DNA from: a bacterium
Lineage (GTDB): Bacteria; Patescibacteriota; Saccharimonadia; Saccharimonadales; UBA4665
Assembly: GCA_021799575.1 (NCBI GenBank)
Contig: JAJZAD010000001.1
Location: 1-64,000, forward strand
DNA length: 64,000 nucleotides
Direction: 5' to 3'
Shown: piece by piece, positions 3,331 to 63,529 of the stretch
Numbering within the stretch: position 1 is the stretch's first letter
Layout of the letters: each line of letters opens with the position of its first letter
Translations under genes and position numbers: made by a program
The notes under the pieces: generated by a model
Database searches by the model: none
What the model saw: the letters and a program-made list of their open reading frames with translations, nothing else
Told to the model about the DNA's origin: nothing

Positions 3331-3560
3331 AAAACCCTCTCTTTGTTCAGCGTCTCGAGAGAGGGGTAAAATACCGTGTCTTACGCTCTTGCTCGAGAGG
3401 CATGTGTTAGGTTAAAAAGCTTCGTATCTGGCTTGCTTTTGAGTAAATACTCAAGCTTACAGTTGCGGCACAGCTCAGGAATTACACCTGATTCCGAATA
3501 TTTTGGTTTTTAAGGTAAGTACAGTTTAGCATAAAAAAACTGTCCTGAGAGCCAATATGT

Positions 3561-57856: not shown

Positions 57857-57885
57857 TTGACAAAAAGATAAGCCTGTGTTATTAT
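57857..57885 (+). promoter_or_regulatory. near-consensus sigma-70-type promoter
   Basis: TTGACA (57857-57862), 17-nt spacer, TATTAT (57880-57885). Confidence 0.8.
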
Positions 57886-57891
57886 GTAAAT

Positions 57892-58486
57892 AATCGATTT
57901 GAGTGTAGAGGCTTCAATCGAGGATGTACCTTAACGGTAATGGAGTAACTAGAACACCTACGGTGTTAATCTGTTACGCACTCTAGTAGTCGAACGCCTT
58001 ACAGCGTTCCGGCAAAGAGACAGGTTACAGGAATGAGCCCCTGTTCTATCTGTTAACTTGCGATGTTGCCCCGACAAAGGGTCGGGACATTTCCGCGCTT
58101 TATCAGGCATGATAAGGAGTTAGCAAACAGGCTTGTCAACCGCTTATGCAGCGGAGCACTAACAGATGTACCTTAGGTGATACTAGCTATCTAATACCAT
58201 TTACCTCTATAAGATATGCAATGAATTCAGTCAGAGGTGCCACCTCAAGACTGGTAAGAGTGCCGATAGAAGGCTTATCTGTTATTCAGATGAGACATCA
58301 ATTGGGCATTCTTGCTCAAAGAATGTCCGTACATTGACAAGAGAAGATAGTTCCTCAAGATGGGATACCGATGTAGCTCGTGCAAGCTGCACCGATACCC
58401 CATCTTGAGAGAGAATGCTGTGCTCAAGCGAACGGATCATCCGTTCACAGGGGAGTCACGAAGACGCTTAGTCTTCAAAAAGGAGC
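57892..58486 (+). ncRNA. candidate large structured leader/noncoding RNA
   Basis: At least 11 local hairpins in ~530 nt, e.g. CTTTATCA/TGATAAGG, CAGTCaGAGGT/ACCTCaaGACTG, CTTATCTG/CAGATGAG, GGGCATTCT/AGAATGTCC, CTCAAGATGGG/CCCATCTTGAG, GAACGGA/TCCGTTC, GAAGAC/GTCTTC; no convincing ORF; behind a strong promoter. Confidence 0.65.
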
Positions 58487-58490
58487 CATC

Positions 58491-58841
58491 ATGGCCACCA
58501 TCCTGAACCTCACCCCGCACGCCATCAACCTGCTGGACGCCGAGGGCAACACCCTCGCCGTCTTCCCGCCCACCGGCACCATCGCCCGGGCGGCACAGCA
58601 GGATCAGCCGGTCGGCAAGGTCGAATCCGACGGTGTTGTCGTAGAGGTCGTACAGACCACCTACGGCGAGCCCGCCGACCTGCCGGCACAAGCCGAGGAC
58701 ACGTTCTACGTGGTGAGCATCCTCACCGCGCAGGCGGCCAAGGCCTACGGCCGGGACACGAGCGACTTGCTCGTGACCTCCGGACCCGTGCGGGACGAGA
58801 CCGGCCGGATCATCGGTTGCCGACAGTTCGCTGTCGTGTAG
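58491..58841 (+). CDS. GC-rich hypothetical protein (phage/plasmid-like NLTPHAI protein)
   Basis: MATILNLTPHAINLLDAEGNTLAVFPPTGTIARAA..., 116 aa, SD AAAAAGGAG; the ORF track extends upstream into the leader. Confidence 0.75.
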   Translation: MATILNLTPHAINLLDAEGNTLAVFPPTGTIARAAQQDQPVGKVESDGVVVEVVQTTYGEPADLPAQAEDTFYVVSILTAQAAKAYGRDTSDLLVTSGPVRDETGRIIGCRQFAVV

Positions 58842-58967
58842 CCGACCTGGTTGGGTTGGGGCGGTTGGACGAAACTTCGGTTTCGGTGGCACAAATGTGT
58901 CTTTACCAGCCGCCCCATGGCACCCCTAACCCCAGCATCTCCCGCTCACTCATCTATCTCTTGTCAA

Positions 58968-59023
58968 TAATCGTTCTGCGGGTGTAGCCCGCACTGATGA
59001 GTCCAAAAGGACGAAAACGATTA
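58968..59023 (+). ncRNA. type III hammerhead self-cleaving ribozyme
   Basis: TAATCGTT-C^ | TGCGGG-TGTAG-CCCGCA | CTGATGA | GTCC-AAAA-GGAC | GAAA-ACGATTA. All core nucleotides (CUGAUGA, GAAA, UUC cleavage triplet) and three fully paired stems present; predicted cleavage after C58976. Confidence 0.93.
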
Positions 59024-59024
59024 C

Positions 59025-59516
59025 ATGATATATCTAGAACAACAACTTGCGACTTTGCCCGAACCATACATTGTTATGGGAGTCGGCATACCCGGCAGTG
59101 GTAAATCCACCGCGCTTGAAGTTGTTGCTCAGCACCTTGAAATAGCCCGAATCTGTCCCGATGATATTCGGGAGGAAATGACTGGTTCAGCTGCCGACCA
59201 ATCGGTCAATGCTGAAGCGTGGGCAGAAGCCTACCGGCGTGTTGCCGTCAGCTTGCAGCTAGGGCATTCCGCCATCATAGATGGCACTCACACCGAGGCA
59301 TGGCGTCGTCCAAAGCAAGTTGCACAGTACCGTGAGCATGGCGCAGCAGCAGTTGCTGCGGTGGTTTTTGATACGCCACTCGCTGTTGCTAAGCGGCGCA
59401 ACCTTAGCCGGGAGCGCGTAGTGCCGGAATATGCACTTGATAAATTGCACACAGCCTTGCAGAAGGAGCCGGTTAGCCATAAAGAAGGGTTTGACGCAAT
59501 ATACGTTCTCCGTTAG
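59025..59516 (+). CDS. P-loop kinase, polynucleotide-kinase-like
   Basis: VMGVGIPGSGKSTALEVV Walker A; ICPDDIREEMTG; AIIDGTH; AKRRNLSRERVVPEYALDKL. Confidence 0.82.
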   Translation: MIYLEQQLATLPEPYIVMGVGIPGSGKSTALEVVAQHLEIARICPDDIREEMTGSAADQSVNAEAWAEAYRRVAVSLQLGHSAIIDGTHTEAWRRPKQVAQYREHGAAAVAAVVFDTPLAVAKRRNLSRERVVPEYALDKLHTALQKEPVSHKEGFDAIYVLR

Positions 59517-59526
59517 GGCATGACGG

Positions 59527-59890
59527 TTCACAAGCGGGAAAAAAGTTTCCTGGTTGTGAGCTTTCATCCGTAAGGTTGGTAGCTCAGAACATTTACAAAA
59601 GCTTTGGAGTAGTTTTTGAGAGGCGTTGTCATCAAGCGACGTAAAAGTCCTCTACACTCACCTTTACTCCGGTAAAGTTACACTTTTGCTTGATGAGTCT
59701 GTCATAGACTGCATAAGCTTTTGCGATGGGTACTGTGTTTATACGCAGTTCCCGGGCAAAGGCTGATGCTTTGACTGGCTCTCGAAAGAGAAACTACTCA
59801 TATAAAGCTATCGGTTCTTTGGTAGGTATGTGTCATGGGTTCAGATAACCCGCCGACTTAAAGGGATTGTCCCTCATACCGCGTTTCCCT
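59527..59890 (+). ncRNA. hairpin-rich intergenic RNA candidate
   Basis: Nested stems TCATCAAGC..AAAAGT/ACTTTTGCTTGATGA (59629-59696) enclosing CTTTAC/GTAAAG; GGGtACTGTG/CGCAGTtCCC (59728-59753); CTCT-CGAA-AGAG; GGGTT/AACCC. Confidence 0.5.
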
Positions 59891-59901
59891 AAGGAGGAAA
59901 C

Positions 59902-61481
59902 ATGTCCAAGTCCATCACCATCGACGCAACCAAGCGGGGCATCCCGGCTATCTGGGAAACCGGTGGCGGTCTGACGTCCGGTGGCTCGGCGACAATCATT
60001 GCCAAGGCTGACGGCACAAAGCCCCGTGCGGTCTACGTCCGCACCCGAGGTCACCTGTCGAGAGGTCCCCACGCACTGGTCTGTGTGCACGAGGGATTCT
60101 ACCTCGTCCACGCTGGCGTCGGCCGCGGTGTTCGCCAATCGGCGCGCATCGAGCGCATCGTCAAGACGTCCGTCAAGGACATTCACGGTGAGAAGTTCGA
60201 GGCGACCGCTGAGGTTGAGGTGGTAAACACCTTCAGCCGTGGCGAGTGGGACAAGCCGCTCGAAGCCAAGTTCGAGGCCGCCGTTGAGGCTGCCTTCGGC
60301 AAGGCATTGACGTATCACTGTCGCAGGGCGGTGTACATCGACACGAGCGAGCGTTCCGCTGAGACGCCCGAGCAGCGCAAGCACCGCGAAGCCGAAATGG
60401 CCAAGCAGGACGGCGAGCGAGCTCGTCTGCGTGCCGACAAGGCAGCCGCTGACGCACAGGCGAAAGCCGAAGCAGAAGCTGCCAGCCGTGAGGCCAAACA
60501 GAACGGACTCGGTGCTCGTCTCGAAGCCGCTCAGGTTCGGCTGAACGCGCTGCAGTCGAGCAACCCGACCACCAGCTACTCCAAGCTGGAGCTGGGCGAG
60601 TCGTACTTCGTCTTCGGATGGGGCAACAAGCTCTACACCGAGGAGAACGTGCGGAACGTCGAGCACAACGTCGGGTACTGGGAGGAGCAGGTCGTCGAGT
60701 AGCTGCGCAAGCAGATGGCTCGGGCCGAGTTCCAGCCCCAGCTCGAGGCGTTCATCCTGCGTGTCGAAAACCTCGGACTGACTCTGAGCTTCGGCGAGGA
60801 TAAGGTCAACTGGGAGGGTGGCAGCTACTACGGTAGCTTCACCTATACCCAGGAGGGGCTCGAGTCCTTCAAATCCGACCTCATCCGCAAGGAGGAGGAA
60901 GCGGCTGCAGCTGCTAAGGCTTCGGCCGAAGCGGAGGCAGAGGTGCTCGGACTGCCCCAGAACATCCGTATCTGGAAGCGCACTGGTGGCGCAACCGGCT
61001 GTGGAATGGGCTGGGTCATCACGCCTGACGGTTTCGACCGCGAGCGTGACGGGCTCGAGAACGACAACCCGCGCAGGGCTGCTCGCTACGATGAGGGCAA
61101 CCTCGTCCTGGAAGCAGGTACTGCCGGGTGAACTCGTTCTAGCTTGGCGCAAGGCCTTCACGGCTGCCGAGCACGAGTTCGAGGTCGTTCACATCCCATC
61201 CGAGGGCGTGACCGAGGCACAGCTCGAGCGTGTCGCCGAAATCCAGCAGGAGCTGGAAGACACTTGGGCTGGCCGTCGCGGTCTGGCTTCGGGTCTCCCG
61301 AGTCCGGCTGTTGGCCGTGGTTGGGGGTCTTGGTGACTTCGAGACGCCTCCTGCACCGCCGCAGGTGTTAGAGACCAGTGAGTCTGACTCGTTTGACGAC
61401 GACACCCCGGCACCCGCCGAACACGTCAACATGGAGAACGCCTTGCAGCGTCTCCAGGACAAGTTCGGTAAGAACCGATAA
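59902..61481 (+). pseudogene. GC-rich ~525-codon gene interrupted by TAG and two single-nt frameshifts (or sequencing errors)
   Basis: SD AAGGAGGAAAC-ATG; 59902-60702 ends TAG then same frame continues LRKQMARAEFQPQLEAF to 61131; next frame GELVLAWRKAFTAAEHEFEVVHIPSEGVTEAQLERVAEIQQELEDTW; then FETPPAPPQVLETSESDSFDDDTPAPAEHVNMENALQRLQDKFGKNR. Confidence 0.65.
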
Positions 61482-61484
61482 CAG

Positions 61485-61745
61485 CTACCCTTGCACCCAG
61501 CAAGGTAAAAACTCTCGCAGGTAACTGTGAGCATGAAGCCGTCAGGCTTTGTGAGGGAATGCTCGACGCGGTACGAGCTTGAGTGTACATTCCATTGCAA
61601 GATGGAACATGGCACAATACCGACTGGCCTCTCTCGAGCCCGGATTTTGACCAGTTCAAGGTCAGAATAAGTCGAGAGACACAAGCCCCAACCAACGCTC
61701 ACCAGCTCAGGTGAATTCCGAAAGGAGTAAAGTTTGGTTGGGGTG
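61485..61745 (+). ncRNA. hairpin-rich intergenic RNA candidate
   Basis: CTCGCAG-GTAA-CTGTGAG (GNRA loop), AAGCC-GTCA-GGCTT, GCTCG/CGAGC, TTCCAT/ATGGAA, CTCTCGA(..TTTTGACC/GGTCAGAA..)TCGAGAG, CCCCAACCAA/TTGGTTGGGG then T-rich. Confidence 0.5.
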
Positions 61746-61800
61746 TTTTCTTTGGTTTTACGCTGGACTTTGTAGGCAGTCGCGGTACCTTGTTCTTGAT

Positions 61801-63159
61801 ATGGATCAACCACCGATACAGTTCACCAATACCGCACCGCATTTGCTGCCTGAAGAACAAAATGGCAAACCTATCCAACTACCGGAAAGCAAAGCAGCTC
61901 GGGTCAATTATTGTCTCTATGCCCGTAAATCAAGTGAAGATGACGAACGCCAAGCTTTGTCCATTGACTCGCAGATCAAGGAAATGGCATTGCAGGCGGA
62001 GGCTCAAAGCCTGCGGGTTACTGAAATTAGAAAAGAAAGCCATTCGGCCAAGGATTCCGGTAAACGACCGGTCTTCAACCAGTTAATCGCTGATATTAAG
62101 AACGGCTTATTTAATGGTCTACTAGCCTGGAACGCATCGCGGCTGTCGCGCTGCGGTGGCGACTTAGGGTCAATCATCGACCTTATGGACCAAGGTAAGC
62201 TAGTGGAAATCAGAACTCATGGCCAGGTATTCACCAATTCGCCAAATGACAAGTTCTTGCTCATGATCTTATGCTCCCAAGCCAAATTCGAGAACGACAA
62301 CTGGGGTATTAATGTCAAACGGGGCATGAAAACCAAGTGCGAACTGGGTTTTCGGCCAAACATGACGCCACTTGGTTACGTTAACGACTATCGTTCAGGC
62401 AAAGGCCAAAAGAAAGTGTTCGTCGACAAGAAGCGAGCGCCTGTTATTAAGGAAGCCTTTGAGAAAGTAGCTTCCGGTGCTCCCGGCAGGGATATTTATA
62501 ACTGGTTCGCCGAAGTTAGCTTTAAGACTAAGCGAGGTAAGCTAGTCACACTTAGTATGGCTTACCGAATGCTCAATAATCCGTATTACTGCGGTATCTT
62601 CGAGTTTCCAGTCGGCAGCGGCAAATGGTACAAAGGTTTATATAAGCCGATTATTAACCGTGAGCTATTCGATGCCGTACAGCAAAAGATGGTGGTAGCA
62701 CCAAAAAGCAAGCCGGGCACCAAGCAATTTGACTATACCAAGCTTCTAACCTGTGGTGGCTGTGGCTCGGGCATTACGGCTCAGGAAAAATATAAGCAAA
62801 CCAAGAAGCATGGTCGGGTACGGTATGTGTATTATCATTGCACCCAATCCAGAAACTTTGACTGCCCCCAACCATACCTGCGGGAAGAAAAGCTGACGGA
62901 AGTTTTTATCCGCCTGCTAGCGGGCATAACGGTACAAGAAATTCAGAATAAAGATACTCTACGGACTGAGTTGGATAGGTTTAGACGATTATCCGCAGCA
63001 GTACTAGGCGATGCCCAGAGTGATGGACTGGGCATAGATTTGCATAACTTTGCGAAGTACATTCTGACGCAAGGCACCAGAGCCGAGAAACGAGCCCTAA
63101 TAGCCTGCCTCGAGCAAACGATTTACCTGAAGAACAAAGAAGTTACGACCGAAATCTAA
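61801..63159 (+). CDS. large serine recombinase (site-specific integrase)
   Basis: NYCLYARKSSEDDERQALSIDSQ resolvase catalytic motif; recombinase domain; CGGCGSGITAQEKYKQ...YYHCTQSRNFDCPQ zinc ribbon. ORF track extends to 61711. Confidence 0.93.
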   Translation: MDQPPIQFTNTAPHLLPEEQNGKPIQLPESKAARVNYCLYARKSSEDDERQALSIDSQIKEMALQAEAQSLRVTEIRKESHSAKDSGKRPVFNQLIADIKNGLFNGLLAWNASRLSRCGGDLGSIIDLMDQGKLVEIRTHGQVFTNSPNDKFLLMILCSQAKFENDNWGINVKRGMKTKCELGFRPNMTPLGYVNDYRSGKGQKKVFVDKKRAPVIKEAFEKVASGAPGRDIYNWFAEVSFKTKRGKLVTLSMAYRMLNNPYYCGIFEFPVGSGKWYKGLYKPIINRELFDAVQQKMVVAPKSKPGTKQFDYTKLLTCGGCGSGITAQEKYKQTKKHGRVRYVYYHCTQSRNFDCPQPYLREEKLTEVFIRLLAGITVQEIQNKDTLRTELDRFRRLSAAVLGDAQSDGLGIDLHNFAKYILTQGTRAEKRALIACLEQTIYLKNKEVTTEI

Positions 63160-63269: not shown

Positions 63270-63360
<91 letters not shown>

Positions 63361-63452
63361 ATTAACGTTTAAGATGTCTACATCATTGTAAGCTCTTAAT
63401 TTCCATTGTGGAAGCTATCATTAAAAGATGTTAAACTAACCTGTTGAAATGT

Positions 63453-63529
63453 GCGCGTGTAGCTCAGCTGGATAGAGCGTTGGCTTGCGGAGCCAAAGGT
63501 CGTAGGTTCGAATCCTGCCACGCGTACCA
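63453..63529 (+). tRNA. tRNA-Arg(GCG), CCA encoded
   Basis: GCGCGTGTAGCTCAGCTGGATAGAGCG TTGGC-TTGCGGA-GCCAA GGTCGTAGGTTCGAATCCTGCCACGCGTACCA. Confidence 0.93.

Follow-up and report, generated by a model that had tools for sequence, protein, structure and literature searches.

Why does a self-cleaving ribozyme stop one nucleotide short of a start codon in a genome of the Saccharimonadales? Could it govern the gene that follows, or does it belong to the gene that precedes it? The locus lies in the window, by which we mean the whole 64,000-nucleotide stretch of DNA analysed here.

The initial annotation proposed a complete type III hammerhead directly upstream of a start codon, and a check of the sequence finds every helix and core letter at the positions claimed (Table 1). 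The core follows the type III pattern (CUGANGA...GAAA, with an NUH triplet), reading CUGAUGA, GAAA and UUC; of the three helices, stems I and II are closed and stem III is open, as in type III. Judged by its sequence, the window ribozyme is a member of the type III hammerhead family. The Rfam covariance model RF00008 matches positions 58969-59022 over its full length (47.4 bits, E 9.9e-9), 1.1 bits short of the gathering score of 48.5, which is a curation cut-off and not a biological criterion. Because of this shortfall a default Rfam scan is silent on the locus. Local folding is stronger than expected (z = -3.3), and the sister species G054 retains the hammerhead, with a compensatory change in stem I. 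No further hammerhead was found in the source genome (805 kb, 16 contigs), the window copy being the sole one. Chance was assessed by a pattern scan of the genome collection for the core and stem II only, with the window copy left out: a stem III of at least 5 bp and a stem I of at least 4 bp accompany 88 of the 125 listed sites, as against 0.4% with shuffled flanks. The window hammerhead is above chance expectation. Its position 1-2 nt ahead of the ATG at 59025, which opens a kinase gene, was also correctly described, and the adjacency is kept in G054. The purine run AAGGA had been taken for a Shine-Dalgarno-like (SD-like) element inside stem II; it lies partly in the stem II loop. Because the stem-loop GUCC-NAAA-GGAC is the common form of stem II in the ribozyme family, also in copies remote from start codons, AAGGA is weak evidence for a ribosome binding site.

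Table 1. Features of the window around the hammerhead ribozyme; positions count from the first letter of the window.
Feature	Position	Strand	Description	Basis or remark
Promoter, strong, sigma-70-like	57857..57885	+	TTGACA-17-TATTAT with TG; could drive the region	
Hairpin 1	58302..58328	+	just 5' of left arm	fold; hairpin in the same place in other units
Left arm	58333..58344	+	ATTGACAAGAGA, perfect complement of right arm	covaries with ATTGACAAGATAAA of G054
Hairpin 2	58354..58409	+	CTCAAGATGGG...CCCATCTTGAG	other units: AAGATGAG/CTCATCTT type
Gene A, unit ORF	58491..58841	+	116 aa	GC 67.5%
Hairpin 3	58858..58916	+	between gene A stop codon and right arm	
Right arm	58957..58968	+	TCTCTTGTCAAT, directly 5' of stem III, shares 58968	
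Type III hammerhead ribozyme, 3' border of unit	58968..59023	+		Rfam RF00008, sequence, fold
Stem III	58968-58975/59016-59023		8 bp	sequence
Stem I	58977-58982/58988-58993		6 bp	sequence
Stem II	59001-59004/59009-59012		4 bp	sequence
Core CUGAUGA	58994-59000			sequence
Core GAAA	59013-59016			sequence
Predicted cut	between C58976 and U58977		C17 = 58976	
AAA_33 kinase, outside unit	59025..59516	+	163 aa; 1 nt after ribozyme	Pfam

Is such a ribozyme unusual in this lineage, as had been supposed? The genome survey says otherwise: hammerheads are widespread in Saccharibacteria and other bacteria of the Candidate Phyla Radiation (CPR). RF00008 matches occur in 22 of the 94 genomes of the window's family, with up to 12 per genome. 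At wider ranks the counts are 63 of 393 genomes for the order, 63 of 394 for the class and 26 of 384 for the phylum; with the thresholds used for these three ranks, 14 control genomes gave no match. Nearly all CPR copies score below the gathering cut-off, and 3 of the 393 order genomes have one above it; since the scores fall just under this line, default Rfam settings hide almost all of them. A pattern scan of all prokaryotes returned at least 120 stretches. Among the matches listed, 98 carry a lineage name, and about 91 of these (counted by hand) come from CPR bacteria, including Saccharibacteria, Parcubacteria, Shapiro-, Nomura-, Kaiser-, Taylor- and Dojkabacteria, among others. Copy number is patchy, with 12 copies in G089 and none in most of its congeners. 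The open-access literature, to which our search was confined, holds no paper joining the hammerhead with Saccharibacteria, the Candidate Phyla Radiation, Patescibacteria or Parcubacteria.

The position of these copies relative to genes is uniform. With genes called by a simple codon model, in genomes that are mostly MAGs, a same-strand gene lies upstream of 164 of 178 CPR hammerheads (p = 1e-33), and the distance from stop codon to hammerhead has a median of about 98 nt (126 nt in the window). Hammerhead-bearing gaps are convergent in 46 cases and divergent in 11, compared with 40 convergent and 129 divergent among the other gaps of the same loci; between convergent genes the ribozyme cannot be part of a 5' leader. 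The upstream gene is also marked by its composition: its GC3 is 0.688 vs 0.518 for the other genes of the locus (n=139, p = 1e-21) and is the higher in 90% of cases, whereas the GC3 of downstream genes shows no shift from the other locus genes (p = 0.14). A Pfam search with 61 upstream proteins found almost all of them to be orphans, with no shared family.

What ends transcription of these genes? Intrinsic terminators follow 6 of 146 hammerhead genes and 38 of 240 controls (p = 4e-4), a 4-fold depletion, and the 3' end in the window is not an intrinsic terminator, a hairpin being present and a U tract absent. The stretch from stop codon to ribozyme (at most 90 nt) is strongly folded, with a median z of -4.0 vs -0.9 in controls (p = 4e-18), and a hairpin of at least 8 bp lies within 3 nt of stem III in 51% of cases vs 23% of controls; the 70 nt 3' of the ribozyme fold no more strongly than controls. 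The units seem to use the ribozyme in place of a transcription terminator. No Rho scores above the family cut-off in 21 relatives, where weak hits cover the ATPase part alone and resemble other ATPases; we accordingly rejected a role of the pyrimidine tract as a Rho (rut) site, although the tract is real. A promoter directly 3' of the hammerhead was likewise discarded: the enrichment of TATAAT-like motifs at this place is matched on the reverse strand and nearly so in shuffles.

A subset of the units, including those of the window and G054, shows a second trait. Here a stretch of 12-22 nt, in direct contact with the ribozyme, is complementary to a segment that lies before the upstream gene. 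G054 has its arms at the matching place (TTTATCTTGTCAAT next to stem III, ATTGACAAGATAAA before the gene) and GGAGGGTGGTTAG...CTAACCACCCTCC at the position of hairpin 3. Upstream complements are present in 32 of 159 CPR loci, compared with 2 and 4 for shuffled arms and 0 for arms swapped from other loci; the controls within the loci gave 8 complements in the downstream region and 14 direct repeats, with arrays of repeat units contributing to both. By the strict run score, perfect arms belong to about 20% of CPR hammerheads, and the rest may have imperfect arms or a local hairpin alone. The tabulated arms mostly lie 0-4 nt from stem III and outside genes. Of 35 units, 24 have one gene between the arms, 8 have none and 3 have two. 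Covariation was assessed in units of the Saccharibacteria type that share the anchor GACAA/TTGTC: all of them (17/17) have Watson-Crick pairs at arm positions 5-8, and each of these positions shows 3-4 pair types. The closing helix appears in the minimum-energy fold of 27 of 32 full units, again including the window and G054. The order of elements is hairpin 1, left arm, hairpin 2 (often AAGATGAG...CTCATCTT), ORF, hairpin 3, right arm and hammerhead, and identical arms flank different ORFs inside one genome. Compared with their own synonymous shuffles, the ORFs themselves have more structure (median z of -1.3, with neighbours at -0.1; p = 7e-5); by this measure gene A of the window reaches about -4, and that of G054, at +0.26, has no extra structure. 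Promoter signal just 5' of the left arms is modest, at 22 of 33 vs 15 shuffled, with the reverse strand equal.

Three loci of G089 (L032, L033, L038) offer a choice of partners, the right arm pairing either with a near arm, which also absorbs the stem III strand, or with the far arm before the gene; this alternative pairing could be a switch. A strand swap in which a 5' hairpin captures the stem III strand is clear in some G089 copies (L032, L038). As a general feature it was rejected, with overall values of 0.39 vs 0.34 and 0.35 vs 0.36 for swapped-tail controls.

In the window, the arms enclose gene A; the GC3 of the kinase gene is 0.47, and that of gene A is 0.889. In PADLOC it matches 'Unk_01' (E 1.7e-19), which denotes a small protein that in some cases is fused to CARF; homologues of gene A occur in Paenibacillus and Microcystis phages. 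The pair of gene A and hammerhead recurs in G162 ahead of a helicase gene, without the kinase. Can such units move? In G016 a unit sits between atpC and a convergent mscL-like gene; a perfect TTGACA-17-TATAAT promoter opens it, and 2 nt separate the end of its ribozyme from that of the neighbour. In G015, a congener, atpC and the same convergent neighbour are separated by an intrinsic terminator and no unit. This one empty site, together with the patchy copy counts, suggests that the units are mobile or insertable. Ribozymes end at most 5 nt from the next gene in 9 of 74 whole-genome CPR cases, and 6 of these 9 neighbours are convergent. Since flush contact thus also occurs with convergent genes, the contact with the kinase ATG is most simply read as the 3' border of the unit.

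About 400 nt of hairpin-rich non-coding DNA without an Rfam match (57890-58300) separate the promoter from the unit, and another hairpin-rich non-coding stretch (59520-59900) separates the kinase from GC-rich ORFs at 59902-60702 and 60715-61131, which look like one TAG-split gene and match no family. A large serine recombinase similar to SCCmec Ccr recombinases (61711-63159) adjoins genes for tRNA-Ser and tRNA-Arg (63270-63529). Given a recombinase beside tRNA genes, the region is probably an integrative island. As to a location in a phage or prophage, the window copy shares this probable island with the serine recombinase, and CPR copies are mostly found beside chromosomal genes.

The protein encoded directly after the ribozyme resembles the 5'-OH polynucleotide kinase domain of CthPnkp (PDB 4gp7/4jst/4mde, E 5e-13 to 1e-11), the best structure match being 4gp7 (E 5e-13, residues 9-162). 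It is also close to phage polynucleotide kinases (phage PNK family), and matches the kinase part of TIGR04075 at 1.6e-14, far below the equivalog cut-off; the protein is a kinase domain alone, not a full kinase-phosphatase-ligase Pnkp. Hammerhead cleavage leaves a 5'-OH, and 5'-polynucleotide kinases use a 5'-OH. A link between kinase and ribozyme, present in two genomes, is attractive. We nevertheless rejected the kinase as a conserved hammerhead partner: the pairing is found in G000 and G054 alone, and more distant kinases are without a hammerhead. Among viral contigs, a search for kinase relatives gave one weak match, without a hammerhead.

Taken together, we consider it probable that the ribozyme forms the 3' end of a CPR unit that is self-contained, mobile and built around a single gene, and whose panhandle mRNA would receive its 3' end by self-cleavage. 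Such a unit would consist of a promoter followed by the elements in the order given above, around one high-GC3 ORF. After transcription, the right arm would pair with the left arm and bring both ends of the mRNA together. The hammerhead would then cut after C17 and leave a 2',3'-cyclic-phosphate 3' end against a closed, hairpin-protected panhandle, self-cleavage substituting for an intrinsic terminator. An mRNA of this form would probably be long-lived. Cleavage of read-through RNA would release a kinase mRNA with a 5'-OH end, headed by stems I and II.

Could the ribozyme instead be a 5'-UTR riboregulator of the kinase, its folding and cleavage deciding whether the ATG or a sequestered SD is accessible, as the initial annotation implied? 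The ATG does follow stem III by 0-1 nt in the window and in G054, the strand covering the bases before the ATG would leave with the 5' cleavage product, the segment is predicted to be open after cleavage, and a few further CPR copies directly adjoin an ATG (L090, L152, L182). The HHphage hammerhead of haloviruses HF1/HF2 lies 13 nt before a helicase start and has a variant core (PMC3088659); like the window copy it is just upstream of a start codon, but it is not flush and no unit arms are reported for it. An effect on kinase translation is possible. As an account of the locus, regulation of the kinase is nevertheless unlikely and mostly unsupported: across the family the ribozyme follows the upstream gene and in many cases lies between convergent genes, the GC3 mark falls on the upstream gene alone, the window arms enclose gene A and not the kinase, AAGGA derives from the common stem II sequence, and in G162 the same gene and ribozyme precede an unrelated helicase. 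A more specific proposal, that the kinase phosphorylates the 5'-OH left on its own mRNA and so feeds back through 5'-monophosphate-dependent decay, draws on the likeness to CthPnkp and on a pairing conserved between two species, with 64% identity between their kinases. We regard it as very improbable, with two genomes concerned, nearly all other units lacking the kinase, and homologues in G083 and G068 having no hammerhead nearby.

The arms might also be terminal inverted repeats of a DNA element, with the hammerhead as cargo or border and the pairing of RNA incidental. Patchy copy number, the empty site, the same arms around different ORFs in one genome and hammerhead 3' ends flush with neighbours would all suit such an element. 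It is an improbable reading, however, for the units contain no transposase, their orientation relative to genes is fixed, and hairpins 1-3, the abutting ribozyme and the extra structure of the ORFs point to RNA. Obelisks, circular RNAs with a structured single ORF and type III hammerheads that are mostly antisense (PMC13096302), raise the further thought that the units are viroid-like or Obelisk-like RNA replicons of about 0.5-1.3 kb, or DNA copies thereof. Size (about 1 kb), one structured ORF in coding RNA and a type III hammerhead are indeed traits common to both (PMC13096302). Yet the CPR units are not circular RNAs without a DNA counterpart; they are encoded in chromosomal DNA with promoters, each carries one sense-strand ribozyme, and their ORFs are unrelated to one another. 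Circularisation by RtcB was rejected as well, RtcB being absent in 21 relatives. A replicon origin is thus most unlikely.

How does a mobile single-gene unit closed by a ribozyme compare with known systems? Integron gene cassettes are mobile single genes with a structured 3' element; in the CPR units, by contrast, the 3' element is a ribozyme. The CPR ribozymes resemble the RF00008 family in full-length match, invariant core, closed stems I and II and open stem III, and differ from it by scores just under the gathering cut-off. Perreault et al. (2011) described several hammerheads around single prophage genes and proposed that they split long transcripts (PMC3088659). Unlike these, the CPR copies are chromosomal, beside housekeeping genes and fixed 3' of one gene, and their units add panhandle arms, hairpins and a terminator-like role. 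We give about even odds to the broader proposition that CPR bacteria possess a new kind of transcription unit, a mobile GC3-rich single-gene panhandle mRNA with a hammerhead-made 3' end, phylum-wide in genomes without Rho. The composite unit may deserve a category of its own if cleavage is shown. What bacterial hammerheads do in nature has been an open question from their discovery onwards, the splitting of transcripts being no more than a suggestion for the phage copies; given a widespread, fixed position 3' of one recognisable gene class, it can now be tested directly. If true, our proposal would explain how some mRNA ends are formed in the largest and least understood bacterial radiation and would give a handle on many orphan genes common to episymbionts.

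Several further loci deserve mention. Hammerheads on viral contigs (L249-L368) lie about 33 nt after a stop codon; where a start codon is close, it mostly follows by 21-25 nt. A GTGTCTTTAAAGACAC-type palindrome flanks many of these viral hammerheads on the 5' side; viral long-range complements proved to be mostly palindromes and were excluded from the arm counts. A contig of Parcubacteria (L147, JANLIU010000041.1) holds a tandem array of at least 8 hammerheads, most about 140-440 nt apart and each with a 9-10 bp hairpin directly 5'. In two genera (L042, L044), hammerheads lie between dprA and topA, behind unrelated ORFs. Elsewhere in the window, the minus strand carries a cobalamin riboswitch at 3401-3541 (42.2 bits).
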